Below are positions 1 to 15,642 of a stretch of DNA of 61,349 bases, piece after piece (positions within the stretch are counted from its first letter, which is position 1; the number at the start of each line of letters is the position of its first letter). The translations under genes were made by a program, and so were the position numbers. The notes beneath the pieces were generated by a model. The model worked only from the letters and a program-made list of their open reading frames with translations, did no database searches and was not told the origin of the DNA. The stretch comes from Candidatus Woesearchaeota archaeon (GTDB lineage Archaea; Nanobdellota; Nanobdellia; Woesearchaeales; WJKR01): contig JAFGNA010000012.1 in assembly GCA_016927245.1 (NCBI GenBank), positions 1 through 61,349 on the forward strand, written 5' to 3'.

Positions 1-21
1 CTTTTTTAGCCCTTTCTCCCG

Positions 22-49
22 ATTGAAACTAAGCCCTGTTAGTTGAGGA
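22..49 (+). repeat. Xer/dif-like cassette junction site 1
   Basis: Left arm attgaaactaa, spacer gccctg, right arm beginning TTAGTTG at 39. The right arm is the inverse of CAACTAA at 667-673, the end of the cassette that starts here; the left arm would belong to a cassette lying outside the window. Confidence 0.7.
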
Positions 50-673
50 GACTGCAAGTCGACTGACCGAAGGGACAGTTTTGAAATTTTACGAACGAAG
101 TGAGACTATTGTTTAGAAAAAAGAGGGGTGAGTTTTTATTTTTTAATACCAATAAACCATGCTTTTTCATTATCATATTTGGGGTCAGTTTTCCAAACTT
201 TAAGAAAATATGTTAATTTATATTTATGTTCAGGTCCATAAAATGGATCTAAAAAATATATGTATTCATTATCAATATTTTTTACAACAACAAAATGATC
301 AACCTTTTCTTTATGAACATAATAAGAAGTTAAAATAAAATAACCTTCATTCATTATTTTTTTTAATTCCTCTATTGTTGAATTTCTTTTAACAATATAA
401 TTTAAATTATACTTTTCTGCTAATTGAGGATATAATTTAGCCCATGTTCCACGAATTTTATTTGTTCCCAATAACTTAACGATTTGTTTTTCTGACTTTT
501 TAATTCCACATGCTTCTAAAATCATTCTCATTGAAGCAGAACCACAAGTCCAACAAGTTTCTTGTTTGTGAAAAGGTATCATAATATTAATCAAAGTTTA
601 TTGATTTATATAAGTTTTTTTGTTTGAGCCCCTCTTTTTTCTTTATTATTTAAAATTTCAAAATTGCAACTAA
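39..673 (-). mobile_element. Cassette A (C39-like protease)
   Basis: The outer arm ttagttg (39-45) is matched inverted by caactaa (667-673). The inner 14-bp arm agaaaaaagagggg (115-128) is matched perfectly inverted at 629-642. About 70 bp between the left outer and inner arms contains the small hairpin gact-gc-aagtc. One gene, with its own TATA box, lies inside the inner arms. Confidence 0.7.
136..582 (-). CDS. Peptidase C39-like cysteine protease
   Basis: A 148-residue protein resembling the papain-like C39 peptidase fold, the family that trims double-glycine leader peptides and also occurs as stand-alone domains. Visible residues are Gln7 and Cys13 in a C39-like N-terminal motif (TCGSAS), His96 in DHFVVV and Asp112 in LDPFYG, in the order and spacing of the family. 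There is no signal peptide or transporter domain, so it is probably cytosolic. I chose the ATG at 582 rather than the TTG at 594 because the TATA-like box at 605-613 is centred 27 nt upstream of it, as expected for a leaderless transcript. It is the only gene of cassette A. Substrate unknown; a role in toxin or peptide processing is only a guess. Confidence 0.7.
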   Translation of the reverse strand: MIPFHKQETCWTCGSASMRMILEACGIKKSEKQIVKLLGTNKIRGTWAKLYPQLAEKYNLNYIVKRNSTIEELKKIMNEGYFILTSYYVHKEKVDHFVVVKNIDNEYIYFLDPFYGPEHKYKLTYFLKVWKTDPKYDNEKAWFIGIKK

Positions 674-691
674 GGTGCTGTTAAGTCGCCC
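663..691 (+). repeat. Xer/dif-like cassette junction site 2
   Basis: Left arm attgcaactaa, 7-bp spacer ggtgctg, right arm beginning TTAAGTCG at 681. The left arm pairs with the start of cassette A (39-45) and the right arm with the end of cassette B (1294-1301). A hairpin ggtct-gc-aagacc follows downstream, near 708-720. Confidence 0.7.
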
Positions 692-1301
692 CGAGCTTTG
701 GTGAGAGGTCTGCAAGACCGTGGGTTGAGGAGCGTAGCGACGAAGAAGTAAAATTTGAGCTCTTAATAAATATCGACCAAAGTGAGCCTATATGTCTGTA
801 GGACTGGAGTTCTTTTATTTTTCTTTTATTAGAATTGATGAAACTTTGAGTTTACATCTTTCAGAGTCTATCCTGCTATCAGTTATGGTTCCGTTTTCTA
901 CTATTAAGATTTCTCTTCCAAGGCATTCTCTTTCTATGTTAAATATTATTGTTGCGAAGTATATTCTTGGTTCTCTCCAGCATTTATTACAAGGTAGTTC
1001 TGTTATTCCTTCTTCTTGCGGAGGTCTACAATAAATCTTGTGACAGGCGTATCCTGTTTCTCTTTCTAATAAAAATACGTTTATTATTATTGCAAAAAGA
1101 AAGCCTATAAGAACATAGATTGCTACAATTAATAAGATCACTTTTTTTATTCTTTTTTTATTCACTGATTTCTTTTTTTGTTTATTTATATTTATAAGTT
1201 TCTATTTCTTTACCCTCACTTCCGATATAAAATTATATATTTAATACAAAACTAATAATTAGAAGATGAAATAAAAAGAGCTCAAATTTTATTCGACTTA
1301 A
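681..1301 (-). mobile_element. Cassette B (Cys-rich membrane protein)
   Basis: The outer arm ttaagtcg (681-688) is matched inverted by cgacttaa (1294-1301). The inner arm is a perfect 16-bp inverted repeat, taaaatttgagctctt at 749-764 against 1276-1291, the longest in the array. It encloses one gene and its promoter. Confidence 0.75.
815..1165 (-). CDS. Small membrane-anchored cysteine-rich protein
   Basis: A 116-residue protein with a basic N-terminus (MNKKRIKK), one membrane segment at about residues 8-32 and a C-terminal part with five cysteines (including CHKIYC and CNKC) that would lie outside the membrane. The spaced cysteines suggest disulfides or a small metal site. The start is GTG: the TATA-like box at 1190-1197 is centred about 28 nt upstream, giving a leaderless message. 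It is the only gene in cassette B. I do not recognise the family. Confidence 0.55.
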   Translation of the reverse strand: MNKKRIKKVILLIVAIYVLIGFLFAIIINVFLLERETGYACHKIYCRPPQEEGITELPCNKCWREPRIYFATIIFNIERECLGREILIVENGTITDSRIDSERCKLKVSSILIKEK

Positions 1302-1319
1302 ATCCTTGTTAAATGAGGG
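1291..1319 (+). repeat. Xer/dif-like cassette junction site 3
   Basis: Left arm attcgacttaa, spacer atccttg, right arm beginning TTAAATGA at 1309. The left arm pairs with 681-688 (cassette B) and the right arm with 1842-1849 (cassette C). The downstream structured segment contains ggct-gc-aagcc and ends in ccgcagagt at 1369-1377. Confidence 0.7.
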
Positions 1320-1849
1320 TGAGCGAAGCGAAAGGCTGCAAGCCGTCCCCGAGGATTTGCGAAGCAAACCGCAGAGTTTTATTTTCGGCACGGCAATTCT
1401 ATTTTTCCATCAATATATTTCTGACAAAAACCTTTCACATTTGGTGCGCAAGAATAATTTTGATATTGTTTCATAGGTAACCAGAATAATTTTTCAAATT
1501 TATCTGGTTCATTTACTTTAGGAATTTGATTATTTTCAATAATTCCTAAATATTTATGACTTTGAAAAGAACGACCATCAATATCAAAATTTTCATATTC
1601 AATATACTTAACAATTGTAACATCAACACCTAACTCTTCTCTACATTCTCTTTTGGCAGTTTCTTCCAAAGTTTCTCCGTCTTCTACTTTTCCACCGGGA
1701 AATTCATAGTGTTGATGTTTATTTTTCCAAAGAAGAAGTAATTCTTCATTGTCATTTACAATTGCGCATCCAGATAATTGAATTCTCATATATTGATGGT
1801 TATTGAAAATAGTATATAAAGTTAGTGCCGAAAATAAAATTTCATTTAA
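1309..1849 (-). mobile_element. Cassette C (Nudix hydrolase)
   Basis: The outer arm ttaaatga (1309-1316) is matched inverted by tcatttaa (1842-1849). The inner arm is a perfect 15-bp inverted repeat, ttttattttcggcac at 1377-1391 against 1825-1839. The left inner arm overlaps the stop codon and last codons of the gene, so the cassette is trimmed tightly around the coding region and its promoter. Confidence 0.75.
1379..1789 (-). CDS. Nudix hydrolase
   Basis: A 136-residue stand-alone Nudix protein. These enzymes hydrolyse nucleoside diphosphates linked to another moiety, often as house-cleaning of oxidised nucleotides (MutT-like). The Nudix box is perfect: Gly33, Glu39, then Arg47-Glu48, Glu51-Glu52 and Gly54, with the preceding EFPGG motif. 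The length is normal for a MutT/NudA-type enzyme; the substrate cannot be read from the sequence. The start ATG at 1789 lies 27 nt from the centre of the TATA-like box at 1811-1820. It is the only gene in cassette C and is AT-rich like the rest of the island. Nudix genes are also common integron cassette cargo in bacteria. Confidence 0.85.
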   Translation of the reverse strand: MRIQLSGCAIVNDNEELLLLWKNKHQHYEFPGGKVEDGETLEETAKRECREELGVDVTIVKYIEYENFDIDGRSFQSHKYLGIIENNQIPKVNEPDKFEKLFWLPMKQYQNYSCAPNVKGFCQKYIDGKIELPCRK

Positions 1850-1866
1850 TTCCTGTTAGTTTCGTT
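1839..1866 (+). repeat. Xer/dif-like cassette junction site 4
   Basis: Left arm atttcatttaa, spacer ttcctg, right arm beginning TTAGTTTC at 1856. It is followed by a perfect 8-bp stem gtttccag/ctggaaac (1864-1871 and 1882-1889) and the 15-bp sequence ctgcgtccgcagagt (1890-1904), which recurs exactly in island 2 at 36801-36815. Confidence 0.7.
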
Positions 1867-1975
1867 TCCAGTTACGAAGTTCTGGAAACCTGCGTCCGCA
1901 GAGTTTTTTCGAGGGCGTTCTATCAAGCTCGGAGAGCCTTCAAGAACATACATCTAGGGGTGGTTTCTATTTGAT

Positions 1976-2176
1976 TTAGATATTTAGTTTGGAGCAACAT
2001 TCTAAACAGAAATATTTTACATTACTCTCATCAATTTCAACATCGTAAGGATTTTCTTTAATAGATTCAGTATCCACAAGAACTTTACATTTATGTATGC
2101 TATCTATTTCTGCATTACAGTCTGCACAATTTACGGATTCCTTTATGTTGAAATATTGGTGAAGTCTTTTTGCCAT
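1976..2176 (-). CDS. Small zinc-ribbon-like protein
   Basis: A 66-residue protein with two knuckles, CADC at residues 17-20 and CLECC near residues 57-61, as in a small zinc ribbon; a further Cys30 lies between them. It starts 4 nt after the stop of the NucS-like gene, and the Shine-Dalgarno sequence ggtgat overlaps that stop codon, so the two are co-transcribed and probably translationally coupled. It could be a partner or antitoxin-like regulator of the nuclease, which is inference from the coupling only. No family recognised. Confidence 0.6.
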   Translation of the reverse strand: MAKRLHQYFNIKESVNCADCNAEIDSIHKCKVLVDTESIKENPYDVEIDESNVKYFCLECCSKLNI

Positions 2177-2180
2177 GGTA

Positions 2181-3146
2181 TCACCTTTTATCTTCTTTTA
2201 TAGATTCTACTTTTTTCACAAAATTTATTATATTTTCTATCATTTCGGAGGACTCAACTTTGCTAACTATTGCATATCTTTTTTCGTTAATTATACATTC
2301 ATCACCAACATATCTATCCCAGAAAATTTTAGAATTAAAATTACCGCCTAATCTACCACTATGTAAAATATATTTTTCTCGATTTGAATTTATAGCAATT
2401 AACCCTGCTGCTCTTAATTCTCCTTTAAAATTAAAATTTATTTCACAAATTATTGATTTTGATGTATTAGGATTTCCCAAGCCAAACGCATTCCAATATC
2501 TTGTAGGATTTTCTCTTGGTGAAACAGTGAACGAACCCCATGCATCTAATTCTTCTATGTAAAAAACATCATAAGTTCTACTGCTATGTTTTATTCCTAA
2601 CGTAATATTTTTAAAAATATTATTTTTTGCTTTAGTTATCCATATATCTTGAATTAATCTTTGAATGTTTGATATTTGGTATGGCTCAGTTAGAACAGTT
2701 AGATTTCTTGCGTTGTAATTTTTATTTTCATTCTTGATATTTTTTGGATTTGAAGAAGATTCTTGAAATAGATTTAAAAATTTGGTATCATGTTTTTTCT
2801 CAATAAATTCTTTCAGAGAATTATAAGTGATTTCTTTCCAAGCGATTCCATGATGGTCTAAACTTCTTTGGATATTTGGTGGAACCCTATTTCCAATAAG
2901 CATGACTCTTATTGTTGGGTCATCATGGGATAATAGCATTCCCTCATATGAAAGAATCTGCCCTATATTTTGGTCTTTTATTGGACCAATTTTTAATTCA
3001 ATAATGAGTTTTCTGTTATGAACATCTTTGAATAGAATATCTATCCTTCTTCCATATACTGTAACTTGACGACCTAAAAATTCTAAATTTTCTTCTATCA
3101 ATTCAGGATACTTAATCAGTATATCCTCAAAATCTTTTTCTTTCAT
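2181..3146 (-). CDS. NucS-like PD-(D/E)xK endonuclease
   Basis: A 321-residue protein whose N-terminal 110 residues match the catalytic domain of the archaeal NucS/EndoMS (DUF91) nuclease family: Asp36 in RRIDILF, Glu50 and Lys52 in IIELKIG, followed by the QILSYEG helix. NucS normally has its DNA-binding domain first and the nuclease domain last; here the nuclease domain comes first and about 190 unfamiliar residues follow. It is therefore a nuclease-fold protein but not a normal mismatch NucS, and a defence role is possible. The start ATG at 3146 is 27-28 nt from the centre of the TATA-like box at 3171-3180. It is the first gene of the two-gene cassette D. Confidence 0.7.
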   Translation of the reverse strand: MKEKDFEDILIKYPELIEENLEFLGRQVTVYGRRIDILFKDVHNRKLIIELKIGPIKDQNIGQILSYEGMLLSHDDPTIRVMLIGNRVPPNIQRSLDHHGIAWKEITYNSLKEFIEKKHDTKFLNLFQESSSNPKNIKNENKNYNARNLTVLTEPYQISNIQRLIQDIWITKAKNNIFKNITLGIKHSSRTYDVFYIEELDAWGSFTVSPRENPTRYWNAFGLGNPNTSKSIICEINFNFKGELRAAGLIAINSNREKYILHSGRLGGNFNSKIFWDRYVGDECIINEKRYAIVSKVESSEMIENIINFVKKVESIKEDKR

Positions 3147-3240
3147 ATTTTGAATAAATATTGAAATATCATATATAAATGTTGTGGGAAAAAATTGCCT
3201 TGAGAAACCACCTCTCTTTAATAATTAAGCCCTCGAAAAA

Positions 3241-3268
3241 ATTGCAACTAAGCCCTGTTATATTCGTC
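3241..3268 (+). repeat. Xer/dif-like cassette junction site 5
   Basis: Left arm attgcaactaa (identical to site 2), spacer gccctg (identical to site 1), right arm beginning TTATATTC at 3258. The right arm is the inverse of GAATATAA in site 6. Confidence 0.75.
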
Positions 3269-3989
3269 GTAGTGAAACGGAGACCGAGGGTTAGTGCAAC
3301 GGTCGGCGAAGCCGAAACCCGAAGAGTTGAGTCCTGCCCGTAAAAGTTATATACTAAAGACATATTATTTGTTTATAATGAAAGAAATATATAAAAAAAT
3401 CTTAGAGAAAGCCCTTCCGTTATACGAAAAAGGAAGAGAAGGAGATGTTGAACATATTAAATGGTTAGCAGAAGTGATAACAAAATATGTTAATGAATTT
3501 GAAGTTGATTATGATATACTAATTCCTGTAGTCCTTCTTCATGATGTCGGATATTCAAAAGTTCCTAAAGGATCAAATCCTTTTGATTTAGATATTAGAA
3601 AATTCCATTCAGAAGAGGGAGCAAAAATCTCAGAAGAAATTCTTGAAGAATTAAATTATCCAAAAGACAAAATCAATGAAATCAAAAGGTTGATTTTGAA
3701 ACATGATAACTGGGCTTTTGGAGACGATTTTGCGGATGAACCTGTATTAAGAATTTTCAATAATTTTGATTTCATGTGGATGGCAAGTGAAAAAGGATTT
3801 GATATTGTGAGAAAATTCATGAAAAAAGAACCAAAAGAATTTTACGAACAAATCAATGAATTCCAACGAAAAAATGAAGAAGAAGGACGTAAATGGTTCA
3901 ACAAAAACATCGAAGAATTCTATAATCAACTTATGCGAGAACGAAAGGAAGGGCTTTCTACATAAAGGGCAGGACTCAATTGAATATAA
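3258..3989 (+). mobile_element. Cassette E (HD-domain protein), next to the recombinase
   Basis: The outer arm ttatattc (3258-3265) is matched inverted by gaatataa (3982-3989). The inner arm ttgagtcctgccc (3327-3339) is matched perfectly inverted at 3967-3979. Its gene is the only one in island 1 that reads toward the recombinase gene. Its two junction sites have spacers in opposite orientation (gccctg against cagggt). Confidence 0.75.
3378..3965 (+). CDS. HD-domain phosphohydrolase-like protein
   Basis: A 195-residue metal-dependent HD-superfamily protein. The motif order is complete: His26, His55-Asp56 (LLHDVGYSK), His77, His109-Asp110 and Asp131. Such proteins hydrolyse phosphate esters of nucleotides or small metabolites; the substrate here is unknown. 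The open frame extends upstream to 3294, but I chose the ATG at 3378 because the TATA-like box at 3346-3353 is centred 27-28 nt before it and because the upstream part reads through the cassette repeat. It ends one base before the right inner arm of cassette E. Confidence 0.8.
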   Translation: MKEIYKKILEKALPLYEKGREGDVEHIKWLAEVITKYVNEFEVDYDILIPVVLLHDVGYSKVPKGSNPFDLDIRKFHSEEGAKISEEILEELNYPKDKINEIKRLILKHDNWAFGDDFADEPVLRIFNNFDFMWMASEKGFDIVRKFMKKEPKEFYEQINEFQRKNEEEGRKWFNKNIEEFYNQLMRERKEGLST

Positions 3990-4006
3990 CAGGGTTTATC
4001 AGCATC
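3979..4006 (+). repeat. Array-end site next to the recombinase (attI-like, site 6)
   Basis: Left arm attgaatataa, spacer cagggt, right arm beginning TTATCAGC. It marks the sharp border between the AT-rich array and GC-rich chromosomal DNA and lies about 130 bp upstream of the XerA-like start codon. The left arm and 6-bp spacer resemble the archaeal dif site bound by XerA as I remember it from Thermococcales. The same 11-bp left arm ends island 2 at 39720-39730. Confidence 0.7.
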
Positions 4007-4133
4007 TTTCGTTCTTCTCGGCTTTGAGCCGTTCTTTCCTTGTTTTCTCCCACCTCATTTTTTTCGTTTTCTCCGTATCGCTTCCGTCCATTTTTCCCGA
4101 ACCGTTTTGAACTCCTTTCTCTCCTTCCCGTGC

Positions 4134-4958
4134 ATGGATCTCGTCTTCCTCGCCCAGCGCAAGATGCGCAGAAGAAGGCTTTCCGAGCGCACGGTCAAGA
4201 CGTACTCGTATTGCTTGGGGCGCTTCCTCAAGTCTATCAGCAAAGACCCTCGTAAAATCACCAAGCATGACGTCCAGGAATACCTCTACTTTCTCGCAGA
4301 GAAAGGCGCCGCTGCGAAGTCGTTGAACGTGCACCTCATGGCCATCAAGTTCGCGTGCGAGGATATCCTCAACAAGCGCTTCTTCGTCAACCTGCCCTCT
4401 TCCAAGCGCCAGCAGCGCCTTCCGGAGGTGCTCACCCAAGAGGAGGTCAAGAAACTCATCCTGGCCATCGCTAATCCTCGGCAGCGGCTCCTCATCAAGC
4501 TCATCTACGGAGCGGGCCTACGCGTCCTTGAGGCCGTCTCGTTGCGCAAGGAGCACCTCTGCCTCGACCAGGGGTTCGGCTGGGTGCGTGGCGGCAAGGG
4601 TGGCAAGGACCGCCTCTTCATCATCCCCTCTGCCATCAAGGATGAGCTCTCAGCCCTCGCGAAGGGTCTCTCGGATGATTCCTTCCTCTTCTCTGGCCAG
4701 AAGCGCCGCCACTACTCTCCCAGGAGCGTCGCCGCCATCGTCAAGCGGGCCGCAAGGGACGCAGACATCAGGAAAGGCGTCCATCCGCACACGCTCCGCC
4801 ATTCCTTCGCCACGCACCTCGTCGAGCAAGGCTGCGACCTCGTCACTGTGCAATCGCTCCTCGGCCACGCCTCGCCGGAGACGAGCATGGTGTACGTCCA
4901 CCTCGCCGTTCCGAAGCTCCTCGTTGCGAAGAGCCCGCTCGACAGCCTCCCTGCTTAA
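4134..4958 (+). CDS. xerA: XerA-like tyrosine recombinase
   Basis: A 274-residue site-specific recombinase of the XerC/D/archaeal XerA type, which cuts and rejoins DNA at dif-like sites through a tyrosine-DNA link. The N-terminal SAM-like core-binding domain spans residues 1-90 and the catalytic domain 95-274. Catalytic residues are all present: Arg130, Lys155, His219-x-x-Arg222, His245 and Tyr254, with the SPLD tail typical of archaeal XerA. It lacks the extra helix between the second and third catalytic patches that marks integron integrases (IntI), so it is XerA-like. The ATG at 4134 is preferred to an in-frame TTG at 4107. It is transcribed away from the cassette array, with site 6 between them, as intI is in integrons. 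It may serve both chromosome-dimer resolution and cassette exchange. Confidence 0.85.
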   Translation: MDLVFLAQRKMRRRRLSERTVKTYSYCLGRFLKSISKDPRKITKHDVQEYLYFLAEKGAAAKSLNVHLMAIKFACEDILNKRFFVNLPSSKRQQRLPEVLTQEEVKKLILAIANPRQRLLIKLIYGAGLRVLEAVSLRKEHLCLDQGFGWVRGGKGGKDRLFIIPSAIKDELSALAKGLSDDSFLFSGQKRRHYSPRSVAAIVKRAARDADIRKGVHPHTLRHSFATHLVEQGCDLVTVQSLLGHASPETSMVYVHLAVPKLLVAKSPLDSLPA

Positions 4959-4999
4959 AGAGCCCCACCGCTACCTTAATAAACCACTTGTGACCCACG

Positions 5000-6520
5000 A
5001 TGAGCGTCATGACAGGCAAAGGGGATCTCATAGCGTGGATCACCAGGAAAGGGTTCGTGTGGGGACCAAGCCCGGAGATTTACGGCGGCAGCGCAGGCTT
5101 CTACGACTACGCACCCCTGGGCAAGCTCCTCAAGAACCGCGTCGAGGCCGTCATCCGCGAGACGTTCATCAAGCAAGGCTTCTGGGAGATGGAATGCCCT
5201 ATCGTCACGCCAAAGGCGGTGTGGGAAGCGTCAGGACACCTCTCAGGGTTCTCAGACCCGCTCATCAAGGACGAGCAAGGCAACGTCTACAGGGCCGATG
5301 ACCTCATCGAGGAACAGCTCGGAAAGGACGACTACGAGCTCGACGGCAAGACCATCAAGATAGACGGCGCCTCGCAGGAACAACTCCTCAGGATCATCAA
5401 GCAAGAAAAAGTGACCGCGCCCGGCGGCAAGAAACTCATCCCTGAGATAAAGCAGCACAACCTCATGATGCGCACCACGACCGGCCTCGACCAAGAAGCG
5501 TACAACCGGCCGGAAACCGCGACCACCACGTACTTGCCGTTCATCCGCTACCTCCACCACTTCCGAGACAAACTACCGTTCGGCGTGTTCCAGATAGGCA
5601 AGGCGTTCAGGAACGAGATCAGCCCGCGGCAGCACATCCTCCGGCAACGAGAATTCACCCAGGCAGAAGCCCAGCTCTTCCTCTTCAAGGAACAAAAGAA
5701 TGGGTATGAACCGTTCGACGGCGTCAAGGACAAGAAGCTCCCGCTCCTCCACCACGGCAAGGACGGCTACGAAGAACTAGACCTCACCCTCAAAGAGGCT
5801 GTCAAGCAGGAAAAGCTGAAGAACGAGGCGTACGCGTGGACGCTCGCGCTGGCGTACGACCTGTTCAGGAACATGGGCATACCGGAAAACAAGATACGGC
5901 TCCGGCAGCACGAACCAGAGAAGATGTCCTTTTACGCGGACGACGCCTGGGACGTAGAAGTAGAACTAAACAGCTACGGCTGGTTCGAGGTGTGCGGCGT
6001 TCATGACAGGACGGACTACGACCTGACGCAGCACGCCAAGCACGCCAAGCAAAAGCTCGAAGCAAGGAACGAAAAGACCGGGAAGAAAGAAGTGCCGCAC
6101 GTCCTCGAGATAGCGTTCGGCACTGACAGGCCGACGTACGCGTTGATGGACCTCTACTACCAGTACGACGAGAAGAAAGAACAAGACACGTTCACCATCC
6201 CGGCAAACATGGCACCCATACAAGCAGCCGTGTTCCCCTTGGTGAACAAGGAAGACCTCCCCTCCATTGCCAAGAACATCCAGGAAGAGCTCCAAGCGGC
6301 CGGCTTGGTAGCCGTGTACGACCAGTCAGGCACCGTGGGCAGGAGGTACGCGCGCATGGACGAAGTAGGGACGCCGTACTGCGTCACCGTGGATTTCGAC
6401 ACGAAGAAGGACGGCACCGTCACGGTCAGGAACAGGGACAGCACCAAACAAGTCAGGGTGAAAAAGGACGACCTCTTGCCTTTCTTGCGAGATCTCTTCT
6501 GTGCCAAACGAACCATTTAA
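5000..6520 (+). CDS. glyS: Glycyl-tRNA synthetase, archaeal/eukaryotic type
   Basis: Class II synthetase that charges tRNA-Gly with glycine in the cytosol. At 506 residues it has the compact archaeal alpha-dimer form, not the bacterial alpha2-beta2 form. Visible parts are the N-terminal GFVWGPSPEIYGG segment with the WEASGHLSGFSDP motif, class II motif 2 FRNEISPR followed by REFTQAEAQ at about residues 205-225, and a C-terminal anticodon-binding domain in roughly the last 110 residues. A TATA-like sequence cttaataa near 4974 precedes it by about 25 nt. It lies 41 bp after the recombinase and is probably separately transcribed. Confidence 0.95.
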   Translation: MSVMTGKGDLIAWITRKGFVWGPSPEIYGGSAGFYDYAPLGKLLKNRVEAVIRETFIKQGFWEMECPIVTPKAVWEASGHLSGFSDPLIKDEQGNVYRADDLIEEQLGKDDYELDGKTIKIDGASQEQLLRIIKQEKVTAPGGKKLIPEIKQHNLMMRTTTGLDQEAYNRPETATTTYLPFIRYLHHFRDKLPFGVFQIGKAFRNEISPRQHILRQREFTQAEAQLFLFKEQKNGYEPFDGVKDKKLPLLHHGKDGYEELDLTLKEAVKQEKLKNEAYAWTLALAYDLFRNMGIPENKIRLRQHEPEKMSFYADDAWDVEVELNSYGWFEVCGVHDRTDYDLTQHAKHAKQKLEARNEKTGKKEVPHVLEIAFGTDRPTYALMDLYYQYDEKKEQDTFTIPANMAPIQAAVFPLVNKEDLPSIAKNIQEELQAAGLVAVYDQSGTVGRRYARMDEVGTPYCVTVDFDTKKDGTVTVRNRDSTKQVRVKKDDLLPFLRDLFCAKRTI

Positions 6521-6546: not shown

Positions 6547-9495
6547 ATGCGTGTAACAATCTCCCTGTTCCTCTTGGTCTTGCTGCCGTTGGCATGCGCA
6601 GTGCCGCACGCTGATTATCCCTCGTTCTCCTCGGCCGAGGGTCGTTTCTCGCTAATAGACGGCGAGCTCTCGGTTGTCGATGATGTCCTCTTCAGAGGTG
6701 GGTATGTGAGCGTTGGCGGCGGTGCTTGGCAGCCCGTCACCCTGGCAGGGGAGCCGTACGGCTCCTCCGCCGACTGGCTGAGCAGCGGTGCTTCGCTTGA
6801 CTTGTCATCGTTCAGCTTCCCCAGTGATAAAGAGTCATACATCATCGTGTACAGCTGCTCGCAAGCAGGCGGCTGGGACTGTCACGCGACGACCTCCCAG
6901 CCAGACGGTTTCTGGCAATTATTCGTCATCGGCGAACCAACCCCTCCTTCAGGGACGCTGTACCTGGTCAAGGACGGCGTCGCCCAGGCGGACATCGTCA
7001 TCTCCCCAGAAGCGCCTAACCTGGTCGCCATGGCGGCCGACGAGCTGCAACTGCACGTCGAGCGCATGACTGGCGCTTCGCTGCCCATCAACAATGTTCC
7101 GAGCCAGGACTATGGCTTCCACGTCTACATAGGCCGATCAACGTACACCGACGCCTTAGGCGTCACGGATGAAAGTTGCCAGTACGGCAGCTACAAGAAG
7201 GTGTCCGGCGACGACTATCTCGTCCTCCTCGGCAACGACGACCTCCAGAGCGTGTCAGGACCACACAGCGTTCGTTGGAGTTCGGAAACGGCGACGGTCC
7301 TCGAGGAGTGGGACGACATCACCGGCGAGTACTGGGGCACGCCGTACCAGACCTACTACAAGGACCACGACCCTGACCACGAAATATGGGAGACCGACGG
7401 TCGAGGCACGATGAACGCGGTCGTCGGATTCCTCTACGACCAAGGCGTCAGGTGGTATTATCCAGGAGAAATAGGCACCATCATCCCTGACAAGCAGGAC
7501 ATCTTCGTCGAGACGATGGACGAGCACGTCCGACCAGACTTCGCGATGCGACAACTCTACGAATACTACAACCATTTCAACATGGCGTCCGAGGACGAGC
7601 TGTACTGGCAGTTACACCTCCAGCTCCATAAGGGCGATGATGTCATCGGACGATCGCACGGTCACGGCATCAGCCTCGTCACGGGCAGGGATGAAGTAAA
7701 GCAAGCCCATCCTGAGTACTACGCTATCTGGGGAGGAGAGCTCATGAACGGCGACAACCAGAAAGAAGACTTGTGCTCACAAGCATTGCTCGAGGAGAAC
7801 GTCGCGTTCGTCAGGAAGTTCTTCGACGTGTACGGCGACGTCGGCGTGAGCGTGATGCCCAGCGACGGGTTCACCTACGCCTCCGAGAGGACCGATGAGT
7901 GCAAGGCGCAAGAAACCAGGGAAAGAGGCTATGAAGGCTGGCTCTCGGACTACGTGTTCGAATACGTGAACAACGTCGCGTGGGAGGTTTACGAGACCCA
8001 CCCTGACAAGATCATCACGTGCGACGCGTACACCACCTACCTTTTGCCGCCGACAAGCCTGAGCAAGCCGATAGCCCCCAACCTCCACATCATCATGGCC
8101 CGGTGGCGGGCATGGTTCACCACTCCTGAGAGAAGAGATTTTTACCGGCAAGTCACCGACGACTGGCTCGAAATCCTGCCATCGAACCAAGTCTACGTCT
8201 GGGACTACTACCTCCACAACAGGCTCGACCGCGCAACAGAGTCCTACCCTGCAGTGTTCCCGCAGATCATCAGCGAAGACCTCAAGTACCTTAAGGGCAA
8301 ATCAGGCGGCGAATACATAGAGATACTGAAAAACTGGGGTGGCTGGAACCTCGACTACGACCCGTACGCCGCGAACGCGCTCAACGTCTGGGTCACCGCT
8401 CGCTTGTACTGGGATGCCGACCAAGACGTCGACCTCCTGTTAGAGGAATATTATGACTTGTACTACGGGCCCGCAGCTGACCAGATGCAAGCGTTTGTCA
8501 AGTACGCGGAGGAACACCTGGCAGAAGCGGGAGAAGAGTCCATACACCTCGTCAACCTCCGTAACATGGCGGAAGAAGCCAGAATGATAGCAGGCGACAC
8601 TGTGTATGGAGAGCGCATCGACCTGTTGTTAGGGTTGATGAACAGCCGCTACGTCGGGGAAGAAGCGCTCATCAGCAGCTGCCAGACGCTCGACTCACCA
8701 AGCACCACGTACAAGCTCTCAAAAGACGTCACCACCACGGGGACGTGCTTCACCATAGCCACGGACGGCGTCACGCTCGACTGCCAAGGACACACCATCA
8801 CCTATGGCACCGGCGGCGAAGGGCAAGGCCTCGTCATCGACGGGGAGAACGAGTATACCATCAAGAACTGTGACATCAGGAGCGGGAGCGCCACGGCGAG
8901 CAACGCGATCTACCTCCACGGCACCCGCACCGGGACCATAGCAGGCAACACGATAACCGTGGCGAACAACGGCATACGCATATCAGGAGCCGACAACACC
9001 ACCATCAAGGACAACACCATCGTCTCGACAGCAGGGATAGGCCTCTACGCTGGAGGACTGGCCTACTCAAACATCACCGGCAACGACATCAGCGGCGAAG
9101 GAGAACAAGCGTTCTACCTCTACGGCTCGCACGACGTCACCATAGAAGACAACGACGTCACGAGCAATAACGGCCGAGGCCTCTGGATGAACACGGGCGG
9201 CAACAACACGCTCACCAACAACAAGTTCACCAGCCAAACAACCTACGCGCTCTGGCTCTATCAAACCACGAACAACCACCTCGTCGACAACACGGCGACC
9301 TCGACCAACGGCATCGGGCTCAGGCTCTACTCAGGAGCCGATGACAACCTCGTCGTCGGGCAGAGCGCGACAGGAGCGAGCATCGCCATAGAAGTAGCCA
9401 ACAACGAAGGCAACACGTTCCAGGACTGCCGAGAGATAAACGGCGAGATACGAGACACGGCGACGGGCACGACGTTCATCAACTGTCCCCATTGA
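6547..9495 (+). CDS. Secreted DUF4838-type protein with beta-helix tail, copy 1
   Basis: A 982-residue exported protein. A Sec signal peptide (about residues 1-19, ending ACA) precedes a short beta domain, then an alpha-glucuronidase/GH20-like N-terminal fold (LAADELQLHVERMTGASLPI-type motif near 165-180), a DUF4838-like alpha/beta region (GVRWYYPGEIGTIIP, HPEYYAIW, WDADQDVDLLLEEYYDLYYG) to about residue 710, and a C-terminal right-handed parallel beta-helix of the NosD type starting LDCQGHTI. DUF4838 proteins are found among carbohydrate-active enzymes, so binding or cleavage of a glycan is likely, but I cannot assign catalytic residues. Many N-x-S/T sites fit a glycosylated surface protein. 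First of four tandem paralogues. Confidence 0.75.
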   Translation: MRVTISLFLLVLLPLACAVPHADYPSFSSAEGRFSLIDGELSVVDDVLFRGGYVSVGGGAWQPVTLAGEPYGSSADWLSSGASLDLSSFSFPSDKESYIIVYSCSQAGGWDCHATTSQPDGFWQLFVIGEPTPPSGTLYLVKDGVAQADIVISPEAPNLVAMAADELQLHVERMTGASLPINNVPSQDYGFHVYIGRSTYTDALGVTDESCQYGSYKKVSGDDYLVLLGNDDLQSVSGPHSVRWSSETATVLEEWDDITGEYWGTPYQTYYKDHDPDHEIWETDGRGTMNAVVGFLYDQGVRWYYPGEIGTIIPDKQDIFVETMDEHVRPDFAMRQLYEYYNHFNMASEDELYWQLHLQLHKGDDVIGRSHGHGISLVTGRDEVKQAHPEYYAIWGGELMNGDNQKEDLCSQALLEENVAFVRKFFDVYGDVGVSVMPSDGFTYASERTDECKAQETRERGYEGWLSDYVFEYVNNVAWEVYETHPDKIITCDAYTTYLLPPTSLSKPIAPNLHIIMARWRAWFTTPERRDFYRQVTDDWLEILPSNQVYVWDYYLHNRLDRATESYPAVFPQIISEDLKYLKGKSGGEYIEILKNWGGWNLDYDPYAANALNVWVTARLYWDADQDVDLLLEEYYDLYYGPAADQMQAFVKYAEEHLAEAGEESIHLVNLRNMAEEARMIAGDTVYGERIDLLLGLMNSRYVGEEALISSCQTLDSPSTTYKLSKDVTTTGTCFTIATDGVTLDCQGHTITYGTGGEGQGLVIDGENEYTIKNCDIRSGSATASNAIYLHGTRTGTIAGNTITVANNGIRISGADNTTIKDNTIVSTAGIGLYAGGLAYSNITGNDISGEGEQAFYLYGSHDVTIEDNDVTSNNGRGLWMNTGGNNTLTNNKFTSQTTYALWLYQTTNNHLVDNTATSTNGIGLRLYSGADDNLVVGQSATGASIAIEVANNEGNTFQDCREINGEIRDTATGTTFINCPH

Positions 9496-9514
9496 ACGGG
9501 CAACGCGCAATAAG

Positions 9515-9522
9515 CTTAAATA
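9515..9522 (+). promoter_or_regulatory. TATA box of DUF4838 copy 2
   Basis: cttaaata centred 28 nt upstream of the ATG at 9547. The stretch from here through the start codon is nearly identical to 12647-12684, so copies 2 and 3 share a duplicated promoter. Confidence 0.7.
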
Positions 9523-9546
9523 CTCTTGTTGCCAAGGACAAGCCTT

Positions 9547-12500: not shown

Positions 12501-12624
12501 GAGCGGCGGGACGTACGCCATCGACGTGGAGAACGCCGAGGAGAACACGTTCCAGGACTGCGGCGAGCTCGTCGGCGGCGTCAGGGACCGCGGAGCAAAC
12601 AATGAGTTCATCAACTGCCCTTGA
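9547..12624 (+). CDS. Secreted DUF4838-type protein with beta-helix tail, copy 2
   Basis: A 1025-residue paralogue of the preceding gene with the same order: signal peptide ending VCA, N-terminal beta domain, glucuronidase-like fold, DUF4838-like region and NosD-like beta-helix. It differs from copy 1 by an extra insertion in the middle region (residues about 230-290) and in the segment after HPEYYAMD. A 54-bp stretch (9727-9780) is identical to 6727-6780, showing recent duplication or gene conversion. I chose the ATG at 9547 rather than the upstream in-frame start at 9526 because it lies 28 nt from the TATA box and starts directly at the hydrophobic signal. Likely secreted or cell-surface; substrate unknown. 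Confidence 0.75.
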   Translation: MRALLLSLFLCLLPLVCAVPHGDYPSFSSPEGRFSLQDDVLSVADAVIYEDGYVSVGGEEWQPVTLAGEPYGSSADWLAGGASLDLSSFSFPSDKESYVIVYSCSQTSGWDCHATNDQPDGFWQLFVIGEPTLPSGTLYLVEDGVAQADIVISPSAPPSVSLAADYFQFYLEEMSGATLPISNNPDPAYDFHVYIGQSTYTDALGVTDEDCRDGGFRMVTGDDHLVLLGEDDEDKLPGFEGVPGPATIAEWDAYVSDTWGGDYLWDNDFLHFYDKQRNSNHDLRETDKKGSLNAVFEFLQEQGIRWYHPGWHEYPNIGVVIPSKPTIGFQPRDEIVNPDFPMREFMLYSKSYSHLSPYHYDGRADEELRWVLSLRSNAFYEFLVASSGGPAHGIRAVIIRQSETHPEYYAMDSSGQRQLPGVVPYPAPNLCYPYYTEENTLFEENVKYAKTMFDLYDVPIVSIMPNDGLGVISNECADKATPERGTEGRYSDYVWEYVNNVAWEIYNDPEYQGKMVSNSAYTPYRLPPLSLSKEVAPNLAVFVGRSRRSFSDEETKASNDDLLGSWKDVLASNNHLTGGKETNVLFTSDYYLNNRYGSSTQGVPMYAPHFISEDLKSLKGVSSGEFMEVGTTSFWPPYNIKTDEWDVEWDAFAANALNIYVLSRLYWDADQDVDLLLEEYYDLFYGPADEEMRSFIEYSESHSWKALIDPDVVPTMRDLLAHAKEVAGETIYGHRIDLLIGLMDSQFSEQEILIGSCQDLTSPLTTYKLTNDVTSTGTCFNIEQFDITLDCQGHTITYATGGEGKGVRVDRHNSFTIKNCDIRSTSQGINRGIDAYRSTGITIRNTTIVTNSMGMDFEDVEDVLVEGNTVTTTAPTIALYSVNDATITDNHFAAQEGMGLYLYNSYNVTATGNDVTSTTNYASHLLESSGNTFSDNTFTSETTHGQWLYKSPNNTFINNHAASRDRAGVRLSTGADGNLFVGQSASGGTYAIDVENAEENTFQDCGELVGGVRDRGANNEFINCP

Positions 12625-12646
12625 TTGAACAGGATCACCCAACAAA

Positions 12647-12654
12647 CTTAAATA
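12647..12654 (+). promoter_or_regulatory. TATA box of DUF4838 copy 3
   Basis: cttaaata centred 28 nt upstream of the ATG at 12679; the surrounding sequence is a near-copy of the copy 2 promoter. Confidence 0.7.
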
Positions 12655-12678
12655 CTCTTGTCGCCAAGAACAAGTCTT

Positions 12679-15642
12679 ATGCGCACCCTCTCCCTGTTCC
12701 TTCTATGCTTGCTGCCCTTGGCGTGCGCGGTGCCGCACGGTGATTATCCTAGCTTCTCTTCTCCCGAAGAACGTTTTTCCTTGCAAAATGGCCTGCTCTC
12801 CGTGGCGGATACGGTCGTGTATAAAGGTGGGTATGTGAGTGTCGGTGGCGGTGGTTGGCAGCCAATCACGTTTGCGGGTGAGCCGTACGGCGCTTCAGCC
12901 GACTGGCTGGCAGGAGGTGCCTCGCTCAGCCTGTCCTCGTTCAGCTTTCCCGGTGATGAGGAATCATATGTTATCGTGTACTCGTGCTCACAAACGAGTG
13001 GTTGGGATTGCCACGCGACGACCTCCCAGCCAGACGGTTTCTGGCAGTTATTCGTCATCAGTGAACTAACCCCTCCTAGCGAGACGCATTTCCTCGTCGA
13101 GGACGGCGTCGCCCAGGCGGACATCGTCGTCTCGCCAGAAGCGCCGAACACAGTATTGTTTGCCGCTGATGAGCTGCAGTTGCGCGTAGCTGACATGACC
13201 GGCGCCACCCTCCCCATCAGCGATGTTCCGAGCCAGGACTACGACTTCCACGTCTACGTCGGCCAATCAACGTACACCGACGCCTTAGGCGTCACTGACG
13301 ATGGCTGCGAGTACGGCAGCTTCAAAATGGTCAGCGGCGATGACCACCTCGTCCTCCTCGGCAGCGACGACCTCCAGAGCGTGTCAGGACCACATTCTAA
13401 AATTGGGTATTGGGAGGTTCCCGAGGCGCGTGCGGAGTGGCAGTCGCTCACCGGTGAGCACTGGGACACACCTTACAATATTTATTACAAAGATCATAAT
13501 CGCCAGTTCGAAATCTGGGAGGCCGATAGGCGAGGCACCCTGAACGCGGTGTTCGAGTTCCTCTATGAACAAGGCGTCCGCTATTACTACCCAGGCGACA
13601 TAGGCATCATCACCCCCCAGAAAGATGAAATGTCCGTCCCGTCAGGCCTTAACGAGCACGTGCAACCGGATTTTCCCATGAGAGAATTTTACCAGCTCCA
13701 CCACAAATTATTCGAAGCGTCAGAAGACGAGTTAAGGTGGCAGTTCAGCCTGCGCATCAACCCTGACGAATACACGGGCAGGTACATGGCCCATTCATTG
13801 AATTACATCACCTCCCTTTCTGAAACCAAACAAGAACATCCCGAGTACTACGCGATATGGAACGGGGTGAGGATGAACGGCGATAACTTCAAGCAAGACC
13901 TCTGCTCTGAAGGGTTGTACGAGCAGACCGTCGAGTTCACTAGGGCGGTGTTCGACATCTACGACCTCCCTGTCATGACCATCACTCCGGCCGACGGGTT
14001 CTCCTACGCCTCTGAATCCAGCGCTGAGTGCAAAGCGCAAGAGACTCCTGAACGAGGAATCGATGGCAGGCTGTCGGATTACGTGTGGGGGTTCGTCAAC
14101 AGGCTGGCATGGGAGGTCTACGACGAGTACCCTGACAAGAAAGTCAGGTGCTCTGCTTACGCTCCTTATTTGCTCCCTCCAGAGGACATCGACCAGTTCG
14201 CGCCGAACGTCGTCGTCTCCATAACGAGGTGGCGGGGATGGTTCGGCGAGGATCCTGACGAGGAGCAATTCTACAAGGACCTCACCAACGCGTGGCTGGA
14301 GAAACTCCCGTCAAAAGAAGTCTACATCAGGGAGTACTATCTCTACGGCAGGCCTGGCGGTGACTGGCAGTCAATACCTGTCTACTACCCCCATATCATC
14401 TCAGAAGACCTCAAATGGCTCAAAGGGAAGTCAAAAGGGGAATACATGGAAGTATTGAGGAACAGCAACTCGCAAGGCCCAGAATGGGATCTCTTCGTCG
14501 CCACCGGGCTCAACCTCTACGTCACTGCCAGGCTGTACTGGGACGCCGACCAGGACGTCGACCTCTTACTAGAGGAGTACTATGACTTGTACTACGGCTC
14601 CGCGGCGGAAGAGATGCAGACGTTCATAGAGTACTCCGAAGCGAATTACGGACGAGCGACAGATGACCCCGAAGTCCTGCTCAATCTTAGAGCAATGGCG
14701 GAGGAAGCGAGAGCAGTAGCGGGCGACACCGTCTACGGCGAGCGCATCGACCTCCTCCTCGGCATGATGAACTCGGAATACATTGGAGAACAAGTCACCA
14801 TTGACTCATGCCAAACGCTCGACTCACCAGCAACAACGTACAAGCTCACAAAAGACGTCACCTCTACAGGAACATGTTTCACCATAGCCACGGACGGCGT
14901 CACGCTCGACTGCCAAGGACACACCATCACGTACGCAACCACTGCAGGGACAAGCTATTACGGGGTGCACATCAACTGGGAGAACTACTTCAACATCACC
15001 AACTGCGTCATCAAGAATGGCAACTCCTTATCAGGGCCAGGCATCTTCGCGCGAGACACCACAGGAGGGGTTATCAAGGACAACGACATCTCCTCGTCCA
15101 GCCATGGCGTCTACGCCTTGAACGCTCACCACCTGGAATCCTTGAACATCCAAGTCCAAGGGAACACCATCACGAGCTCCTCTGGAGTCGCTCTCTACAC
15201 GAACGGCATGTCAAACGGCAGCATACGAGACAACGAGATGAAAGGCGCAACAGACCTAGGGTTGTACCTCTATAACACGCACGATTTCATCGTGGACAGC
15301 AATAGCTTCTCGAGCAACACAGATAACGGAGCAAAAGTCATGGAGAGCACGAGGAACCGTTTTACCATGAACAACTTCACAAGCGACTCCGGAAACGCCC
15401 TGTACATCACGCAATCCTCAGAGAACGCCTTCATCGACAACGCCGCAGTCTCGCAAGAGAAAAATGGAATAGCCCTGTACGTCGGCGGTGACAACACGTT
15501 CATCGGGCAGTCCGCGAGTGGAGGAATAAAAGCGCTTTACATCAGCGGCTCTTCAAGCAATACGTTCCAGGACTGCGGCGAACTCGTCGGCGGCGTGCAG
15601 GACAGCGGTACTAACAATGAGTTCATCAACTGTCCTTATTGA
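12679..15642 (+). CDS. Secreted DUF4838-type protein with beta-helix tail, copy 3
   Basis: A 987-residue paralogue with signal peptide (ending ACA), the glucuronidase-like N-terminal fold, DUF4838-like region and C-terminal beta-helix. The middle region is closer to copy 1 (for example NGDN and ECKAQETPERG), while the block encoding WDADQDVDLLLEEYYDL is identical in DNA to that of copy 2, a mosaic that points to gene conversion. The beta-helix is the most diverged part. The start at 12679 is set by the TATA spacing. It ends, like copy 2, with a FQDCGELVGGV segment and a FINCP tail, which may be a cell-surface or folding cap since it is kept in all three. Confidence 0.75.
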   Translation: MRTLSLFLLCLLPLACAVPHGDYPSFSSPEERFSLQNGLLSVADTVVYKGGYVSVGGGGWQPITFAGEPYGASADWLAGGASLSLSSFSFPGDEESYVIVYSCSQTSGWDCHATTSQPDGFWQLFVISELTPPSETHFLVEDGVAQADIVVSPEAPNTVLFAADELQLRVADMTGATLPISDVPSQDYDFHVYVGQSTYTDALGVTDDGCEYGSFKMVSGDDHLVLLGSDDLQSVSGPHSKIGYWEVPEARAEWQSLTGEHWDTPYNIYYKDHNRQFEIWEADRRGTLNAVFEFLYEQGVRYYYPGDIGIITPQKDEMSVPSGLNEHVQPDFPMREFYQLHHKLFEASEDELRWQFSLRINPDEYTGRYMAHSLNYITSLSETKQEHPEYYAIWNGVRMNGDNFKQDLCSEGLYEQTVEFTRAVFDIYDLPVMTITPADGFSYASESSAECKAQETPERGIDGRLSDYVWGFVNRLAWEVYDEYPDKKVRCSAYAPYLLPPEDIDQFAPNVVVSITRWRGWFGEDPDEEQFYKDLTNAWLEKLPSKEVYIREYYLYGRPGGDWQSIPVYYPHIISEDLKWLKGKSKGEYMEVLRNSNSQGPEWDLFVATGLNLYVTARLYWDADQDVDLLLEEYYDLYYGSAAEEMQTFIEYSEANYGRATDDPEVLLNLRAMAEEARAVAGDTVYGERIDLLLGMMNSEYIGEQVTIDSCQTLDSPATTYKLTKDVTSTGTCFTIATDGVTLDCQGHTITYATTAGTSYYGVHINWENYFNITNCVIKNGNSLSGPGIFARDTTGGVIKDNDISSSSHGVYALNAHHLESLNIQVQGNTITSSSGVALYTNGMSNGSIRDNEMKGATDLGLYLYNTHDFIVDSNSFSSNTDNGAKVMESTRNRFTMNNFTSDSGNALYITQSSENAFIDNAAVSQEKNGIALYVGGDNTFIGQSASGGIKALYISGSSSNTFQDCGELVGGVQDSGTNNEFINCPY

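Follow-up and report, generated by a model that had tools for sequence, protein, structure and literature searches.

Bacterial integrons exchange only a folded bottom strand and resolve the product by replication, as the relevant part of one account describes (PMC8946536). Integrons have also been reported from archaea, with an IntI integrase carrying an extra domain and with classical attC sites, Nanoarchaeota attCs among them, according to the sections of Ghaly et al. 2022 (PMC9668308) that deal with these sites. For double-strand Xer exchange, the passages of PMC11705084 that bear on the point record none between sites without closely related central regions. Here we describe an array of gene cassettes in a 61,349-nucleotide (nt) stretch of DNA (the window) from Candidatus Woesearchaeota archaeon, which is contig C22 of a 24-contig genome of 1.11 Mb. 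Bases 1-4006 hold the enzyme-proximal part of the array, which is truncated by the contig start and ends 0.1 kb from the gene for a XerA-like tyrosine recombinase (4134-4958). With a probability of about 0.7, judged from sequence comparisons, this locus belongs to an integron-like gene-capture system of DPANN archaea, in which a XerA-family tyrosine recombinase would insert circular cassettes at an adjoining attI-like site. Given such capture at attI, the array would be a store of foreign accessory genes.

A preliminary description of this DNA had listed six sites of the form ATT-N5-TAA, spacer, TTA with spacers of 6-7 nt, and all are present, at 22-41, 663-683, 1291-1311, 1839-1858, 3241-3260 and 3979-3998, with spacers of 6, 7, 7, 6, 6 and 6 nt. 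The outer arms of each of its five cassettes are complementary, as had been stated (8/8 positions in cassettes 2, 3 and 5, 7/8 in cassettes 1 and 4). Inner arms had been given as 14, 16, 15, 13 and 13 nt, which holds for cassettes 2-5; in the register common to all five, which starts exactly 2 nt (TT) inward of one outer arm, they measure 13, 16, 15, 13 and 13 nt. The 14-nt repeat (115-128/629-642) given for cassette 1 exists, but is a second, inner repeat and was rejected as its register arm. Nor is the sixth site an array junction, as had been supposed: 3979-4006 is an enzyme-side, attI-like site. An inversion of the array sites around cassette 5 was likewise rejected, since attI occupies the sixth site and cassette 5 does not differ from the others in polarity. 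The first site is the cut end of one further cassette. The features are as follows.

22..38, + strand: end of the further cassette, cut by the contig start; TT and outer arm R at 25-32 (GAAACTAA), then spacer GCCCTG at 33-38
39..673, + strand: cassette 1; R' 39-46, structured block 47-78, inner arms 79-91/651-663, TT 664-665, R 666-673; spacer 674-680 follows
136..594, - strand: cassette 1 gene, peptidase C39-like, 152 amino acids (aa); Pfam PF13529, E 4e-12
681..1301, + strand: cassette 2; R' 681-688, structured block 689-748, inner arms 749-764/1276-1291, TT 1292-1293, R 1294-1301; spacer 1302-1308 follows
815..1165, - strand: cassette 2 gene, 116 aa, without a family match, N-terminal hydrophobic stretch noted by eye
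1309..1849, + strand: cassette 3; R' 1309-1316, structured block 1317-1376, inner arms 1377-1391/1825-1839, TT 1840-1841, R 1842-1849; spacer 1850-1855 follows
1379..1789, - strand: cassette 3 gene, NUDIX hydrolase, 136 aa; PF00293, E 1.6e-20
1856..3251, + strand: cassette 4, with two genes; R' 1856-1863, structured block 1864-1903, inner arms 1904-1916/3229-3241, TT 3242-3243, R 3244-3251; spacer 3252-3257 follows
1976..2176, - strand: cassette 4 small gene, 66 aa, several cysteines, without a family match
2181..3146, - strand: cassette 4 gene, PD-(D/E)XK nuclease related to the NucS C-terminal domain, 321 aa; PF01939, E 2e-7, and PF14281, E 3e-5
3258..3989, + strand: cassette 5, adjoining attI; R' 3258-3265, structured block 3266-3326, inner arms 3327-3339/3967-3979, TT 3980-3981, R 3982-3989
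3369..3965, + strand: cassette 5 gene, HD-domain protein, start uncertain; PF01966, E 3e-6 (searched from 3378)
3979..4006, + strand: attI-like site; R end ..TAA, spacer CAGGGT, L-like TTATCAGCATC; predicted crossover TAA (3989) / C (3990)
4134..4958, + strand: gene for the XerA-like tyrosine recombinase (integrase), 274 aa from the ATG at 4134; a longer TTG start at 4107 is possible

The same geometry recurs in related archaea. Read toward the recombinase, a cassette consists of R' (TTANNNNN), a structured block of 29-144 nt, an inner arm (11-18 nt), the gene, the second inner arm, TT, R (NNNNNTAA) and the spacer; each is one unit with self-complementary ends, and polarity is nearly always constant. 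We searched 61 regions upstream of related recombinases in 59 genomes, together with the part of the window's own array that lies on contig C1, and kept 78 cassettes, from 36 of these 62 regions (34/59 genomes). Across the 62 regions (522,332 bp) the register matched 81 times on the expected strand and 5 times on the other. Two matches were removed by hand (L080; L094 at 2133) before an earlier set of 54, and the third difference between 81 and 78, which is untraced, probably reflects another best-hit rule. There were no matches on either strand in 118,399 bp of other DNA from the window's and two related genomes, and 3 (1 + 2) in 1,050,032 bp from 77 loci around other Xer/IntI genes, mostly bacterial and drawn from at least 80 loci among the matches listed. 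With inner arms of at least 12 nt and a gap of 2, the first 44 regions gave 59 matches; five Markov-simulated sets gave 0, 0, 0, 2 and 0, the opposite strand 4 and the reversed sequence 7. Gaps of 0 and 1 gave 7 and 3 matches in that test, and gaps of 3-6 gave 50, 35, 18 and 9, largely the identical arms where these are longer than 12 nt. Pairing TAA-N-TTA sites without the inner-arm register was tried and abandoned as too noisy in AT-rich DNA, real and shuffled counts overlapping in many loci. Many contigs stop near the recombinase: the upstream end lies less than 500 nt from the recombinase in 9/62 regions, and 19 of the 24 regions with at least 10 kb upstream contain cassettes. The 59 relatives on viral contigs produced a single geometry match (L275), which is without the TT gap and which we read as chance, and the 4.8 kb upstream of an Aenigmatarchaeota clade member (L105) held no canonical cassette. 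The check that had been suggested for the preliminary description, a search for nested-repeat cassettes near XerA-like genes of related DPANN genomes, was thus positive; the cassette ends recur in relatives, the control DNA is without the geometry, and two genomes of the genus differ at the locus by presence or absence of array and enzyme. The observation is real, and larger than first noted.

Because the cassettes had been found by pairing, a second test chose sites solely by their spacer motif and compared each with its neighbour (39 pairs, 15 loci). In 21 of the 39 pairs the five variable outer-arm positions all matched, and in 31 at least four did; among 1,482 cross pairs, all five matched in 1.8%. 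An inner arm of at least 11 nt was found in 23/39 pairs versus 4 of 1,320 cross pairs, and the 2 nt inside R were TT in 38/39. Arm sequences vary between cassettes but pair within one. Outer-arm pairing stops at 8 nt, positions 9 and 10 both being unpaired in 72/78 cassettes. The TT count over the whole set (76/78) is partly circular, as the filter required TT for inner arms under 13 nt; in the 69 matches with inner arms of at least 13 nt, where it was not required, the TT gap was present in 65.

One strand of the structured blocks is marked. The strand that runs to the recombinase has 40 hairpins closed by GNA triloops (stem of at least 4 bp), the other strand has 1, and the shuffled mean is 1.7; at least one such hairpin occurs in 34/78 blocks. 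GNA triloops are unusually stable in DNA. Folding with DNA parameters gave the lower energy on the recombinase-ward strand for 57/78 blocks and 58/67 joined ends, although the mean difference is small (-9.6 vs -9.1 kcal/mol for blocks). Together with the spacers considered below, which point to the same strand, these hairpins suggest that, as in integrons, a single folded strand is exchanged. On the recombinase-ward strand, a circular cassette would have its joined ends folded into a closed multi-branch hairpin; the enzyme would cut this folded strand after TAA and join that single strand to attI, and replication would then complete the insertion, as in bacterial integrons. Such a cut would convert an R-spacer-R' circle plus R-attI into R-spacer-R'...R-attI, so that attI would keep its own spacer and the cassette spacer would move with the structured end. 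That outcome matches the arrays seen, and the strand it requires is the one bearing the GNA hairpins.

Junctions between cassettes are of more than one type. The script sorted the 78 cassette ends into 38 short ones (TTA preceded by a 5-7 nt spacer with a final G), 25 enzyme-proximal, 10 long and 5 other. Inspection by eye shows that among these L088:15465, counted as long, is attI-proximal, that L207:17280, counted as other, is long, and that L069 and L081, counted as enzyme-proximal, are short junctions. Short junctions have the form NTTNNNNNTAA-N5/7-TTANNNNN, with spacers such as CGATG, TTCCTG and TCCTTG, and their right arm comprises the 8 paired nt only, followed by the structured block. 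In long junctions, of which L071, L079 and L207 provide examples, the order is R''-L''-variable terminal structure (VTS)-L'-R', and L207 has both kinds. The window sites have no L''/L' hairpin, their spacers being only 6-7 nt. It had been proposed that the array uses Xer/dif-like sites instead of attC; this is too strong, because several relatives have R''-L''-VTS-L'-R' hairpin junctions in similar arrays. By eye, GAAGTT and AATTTGGG motifs recur inside several long hairpins (L071 and other long-junction arrays), and GCGAAG occurs both in some L'' arms and in the L box of attI; these recurrences suggest a shared binding sequence.

Junctions on the enzyme side differ in form, TAA-C-N5-TATATGCGAAG-like (ATTG-N4-TAAC-N5-TATATG-like). 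This attI-like motif was found upstream of 50/76 related recombinase genes, compared with 11 on the other strand and 9 in shuffled sequence; one row of that count (L027) repeats the window and some of its weakest matches look doubtful. The window's own L box fits the motif at 4/6 positions only. Like an integron, the system thus has an attI-like site adjoining its recombinase gene. In 20 loci having both junction types (the window was left out by the script's rule), the enzyme-side spacer was common to the short junctions in 0/20, on either strand. The preliminary description had a XerA-like enzyme using the junction sites. An archaeal integron-like array served by such an enzyme is supported; double-strand dif or pdif behaviour of the sites is not, because spacers differ in 20/20 loci, arms covary, and the stable hairpins lie on one strand.

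The recombinase (window protein) scored 213 bits with the archaeal XerA model NCBIfam NF040815, just under the cut-off of 220, and 183 bits with the integron integrase model TIGR02249, whose cut-off is 265. Its Pfam domains are Phage_int_SAM and Phage_integrase, and the catalytic residues R130, K155, H219, R222, H245 and Y254 are invariant in 26 aligned sequences. Between the GKGxKDR and HxLRH motifs lie 65 residues in the window protein and 60-69 in 76 of the 80 clade sequences (80 in L103; the motif was not found in three). Fourteen proteins with 107-108 residues in this interval form one clade, their IntI label resting on that length. In the array enzyme the IntI-specific insertion, or additional domain, is absent. 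In a FastTree phylogeny of 156 sequences, 79 of the 80 members and one Aenigmatarchaeota protein formed a single clade (0.96) with archaeal XerA alongside it (0.998); L100, the remaining member, fell with XerA. IQ-TREE analysis of 56 sequences recovered the clade at 100/100 and grouped it with seven XerA-like archaeal sequences (90/84); IntI lay beyond a 98/93 branch, with the recombinase lineage of contig C21, two Undinarchaeales sequences and most bacterial Xer proteins. Archaeal XerA, rather than IntI, is the most likely source of the enzyme, and an independent origin from XerA is preferred, not proven. Matches at E <= 1e-63 occur in 64/287 genomes of the order (including G086, whose protein is L100) and in 71 of the 371 genomes sampled in the phylum (completeness at least 70), 19 of these 71 being in other orders of the class.

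The host's presumed dimer-resolving XerA is a different protein from the array enzyme, which belongs to a clade of its own. A separate XerA-like gene lies at C5:19940-20800 (L017) of the same genome, with a dif-like palindrome, CGCATAA-TGTATA-TTACGCG, just upstream (C5:20027); a congeneric genome, G001, has a dif-like site at the equivalent place, CGTATAA-TGTATA-TTACCCG. The window's genome also encodes, at C21:71260-72988 (L018:3260-4988), another recombinase, of a distant lineage, accompanied by one cassette and an attI-like site of its own, TAA-CACGTA-TTTAGCGACC; its relative on contig C34 of G001 has TAA-CACATA-TTTAACGA.

The genomic setting indicates insertion. Bases 1-4006 have a G+C content of 30.4%, against 57.4% for the rest of the window, so that the array is foreign in composition to its host. 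It goes on in contig C1, on the minus strand, with sites at 2102-2083, 1512-1493 and 1054-1035, flanked by ordinary chromosome that includes a RIO kinase-like gene (C1 genes were named by eye). On contig C60 of G001, genes for topoisomerase VI subunit B, a KH protein, RIO kinase, a small open reading frame (ORF) and glycyl-tRNA synthetase (GlyRS) are contiguous, with neither recombinase nor cassettes between RIO kinase and GlyRS. The homologues are 78% (RIO kinase) and 73% (GlyRS) identical in amino acid sequence, the small ORF showing weak similarity (48% over 29 aa, E 9e-6). C1 holds the RIO kinase flank in the window's genome, and C22 the GlyRS flank; because these flanks are contiguous in G001, the two contigs are very probably neighbours, and the recombinase and array were very probably inserted between direct neighbours in the gene order of the other species of the genus, a comparison that comprises two genomes. 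G001 has a related recombinase of its own elsewhere (C18, 44% identity). Contig C1 also has a topoisomerase VI subunit B-like ORF of 1,125 aa (L009:4444-7821) that by eye, from its translation, seems to contain an intein, and downstream of GlyRS the window has a 982-aa ORF (6547-9495) that, again by eye, begins like a signal sequence and is repetitive in its C-terminal part. Rfam gave no matches at E <= 0.1 in window positions 1-5000.

Comparisons among cassettes point to modules that move. End modules more than 90% identical occur, in different genomes, on genes without detectable similarity (e.g. L069, L103, L201, L203), and two genomes, L071 and L209, have one gene in common (67% over 108 aa), the boundaries of the L209 cassette (L209:965, without TT) being uncertain. 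In L068 (G170) one cassette is present twice, at 8639-9532 and 12596-13489 (93% identical), with other cassettes between. Cassette 2 of the window shares its outer and inner arm with the lone C21 cassette, which carries a different gene beside the distant recombinase. The median cassette with ORFs is 0.9 kb, with a single ORF in 50/78, and 7 have none by the script's rule, among them cassette 3 of the window because its NUDIX ORF runs into the inner arm. Family scans took 93 of the 106 ORFs (those of at least 90 aa) plus that NUDIX gene; these 94 proteins hit 69 Pfam families (E <= 1e-5), with methyltransferases, TrmB and nucleotidyltransferases foremost and EcoRV-like, NUDIX, HEPN, deaminase and isochorismatase members also present. 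PADLOC reported 35 families, among them type II restriction and methylation, as well as one prokaryotic Argonaute (pAgo) match.

Several observations weigh against an integron-like system with its own XerA-derived enzyme. ORF direction is mixed, 63 toward the enzyme and 43 away, unlike classical integrons. No cassette came from 26/62 regions and no attI-like motif was found for 26/76 genes. Selection by arms makes the pairing counts over the 78 cassettes circular, and among the motif-only pairs 8/39 matched at three or fewer of the five positions and 16/39 were without an inner arm of at least 11 nt. The attI spacer of the window, CAGGGT, is one base off the reverse complement of the array spacer GCCCTG, a flipped match of 5/6. 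A folded strand with a short spacer offers one enzyme box (the R hairpin) and no L box, which leaves two-protomer binding unexplained. On the phylogenetic side, an approximately unbiased (AU) test did not reject a grouping of the clade with IntI (p 0.224), and the clade profile scored IntI4 at 206 bits, slightly above XerA structures (196, 194). No recombination, circle or array change was observed, in what are mostly draft genomes, one per species.

The last two comparisons, with IntI4 as the best PDB match by profile, are what would be expected if an ordinary IntI/attC-family integron had been acquired and modified by archaea, as are the function-like architecture, the predicted G^TTA crossover and the long attC-like hairpin junctions of several relatives. 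We regard this as unlikely: the enzyme has no IntI-specific insertion, falls short of the integrase cut-off and has its place in the tree with archaeal XerA, the 77 other Xer/IntI loci do not show the inner-arm register save for 3 matches, and the window sites have no L''/L' hairpin.

The short junctions look dif-like, with left arms of about 11 nt and a TAA-N5/7-TTA core, and archaeal XerA, which the enzyme resembles, acts at dif sites in the part of PMC8371274 that concerns it. The array might accordingly consist of double-strand Xer/dif-type modules, like the pdif modules of Acinetobacter, with a XerA-like enzyme exchanging both strands at R-spacer-R'. The near identity of the window's attI spacer to the reverse complement of the array spacer fits this as well, since a double-strand exchange in the flipped alignment would have had a nearly matched spacer there; but that exchange would place the structured block beside attI, where it is not seen. 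As double-strand exchange also leaves the cassette-specific arm pairing, the fixed TT gap, the inner arms and the one-strand hairpins unexplained, we consider it quite improbable.

Phase-variable inversion, the enzyme flipping genes between inverted arms to switch their expression, would account for ORFs in both directions and for arms that are inverted repeats. It is very improbable, in that the structured block keeps to one end (the 81 to 5 split by strand), the arms are mostly private to a cassette, and the internal cassette spacers stand in direct orientation at both ends, which predicts excision. That the units are independent small transposons, or elements like miniature inverted-repeat transposable elements (MITEs), lying side by side with the recombinase a bystander can scarcely be credited, even though each unit is foreign in composition and has a gene enclosed by terminal inverted repeats, as no transposase occurs among the window cassette genes, the repeats differ by unit, and the units abut with short spacers in one polarity and end at a recurrent site beside the recombinase.

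An integron-like capture system built on a XerA-family enzyme would matter for several reasons. DPANN archaea have tiny genomes, and to our knowledge little has been established about how they gain genes. A cassette-capture enzyme in roughly a fifth of the sampled genomes of the group could be a main route of gene gain, one that would carry restriction, methyltransferase, NUDIX, HD and nucleotidyltransferase/HEPN genes. We hold at even odds the further proposal that integrons were invented twice, a domesticated DPANN XerA having become a cassette-capturing integrase whose path would be preserved in the short dif-like and long attC-like junctions and in the code of inner arm, TT bulge and GNA hairpin, by which the strand for exchange would be marked. 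If the clade were instead sister to IntI and devoid of the extra domain, a pre-IntI integron would have survived in it. The system would allow the evolution of folded single-strand recombination sites out of dif-like ones to be put to the test, and it invites comparison with IntI, an enzyme of different lineage that has an extra domain. Integron finders that seek IntI and classical attC would be expected to miss short-site arrays.

The literature searched, which covered few subscription papers and no preprints, revealed no XerA-type cassette system, so that in function the array would be a new variety of integron, although its enzyme does not qualify as an IntI. Some of the long junctions found here may be among the Nanoarchaeota attCs that Ghaly et al. 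2022 (PMC9668308) list in the sections on those sites. Like integrons with their IntI, attI and attC, the array has a recombinase gene beside attI, a polar series of small cassettes and a predicted G^TTA-type crossover; its cassette ends stay complementary while their sequence varies, one strand is marked, and some relatives have R''-L''-VTS-L'-R' hairpins. Unlike integrons, it has an enzyme that is devoid of the IntI-specific domain and branches near XerA, as well as extra inner arms, a structured block between outer and inner arm, a TT bulge, many junctions that are a 5-7 nt spacer only, and genes in both orientations. With the pdif (xrs) modules of Acinetobacter, as portrayed in the pertinent part of PMC11705084, it shares short sites with a TAA/TTA core, a spacer of about 6 nt, a Xer-family enzyme and adaptive genes between sites. 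It differs from them in having a dedicated recombinase encoded at the array, a polar array with attI, non-homologous spacers in most arrays, arms that are private to a cassette and complementary, a chromosomal location, and one enzyme in place of XerC plus XerD. Archaeal XerA is the closest enzyme group in the tree and has an identical Pfam domain make-up; unlike XerA, which resolves dimers at dif, the array enzyme forms a distinct clade beside cassettes, and the host's XerA-like gene is separate. The nested, cassette-specific arms fit, as first proposed, neither classical attC nor pdif.

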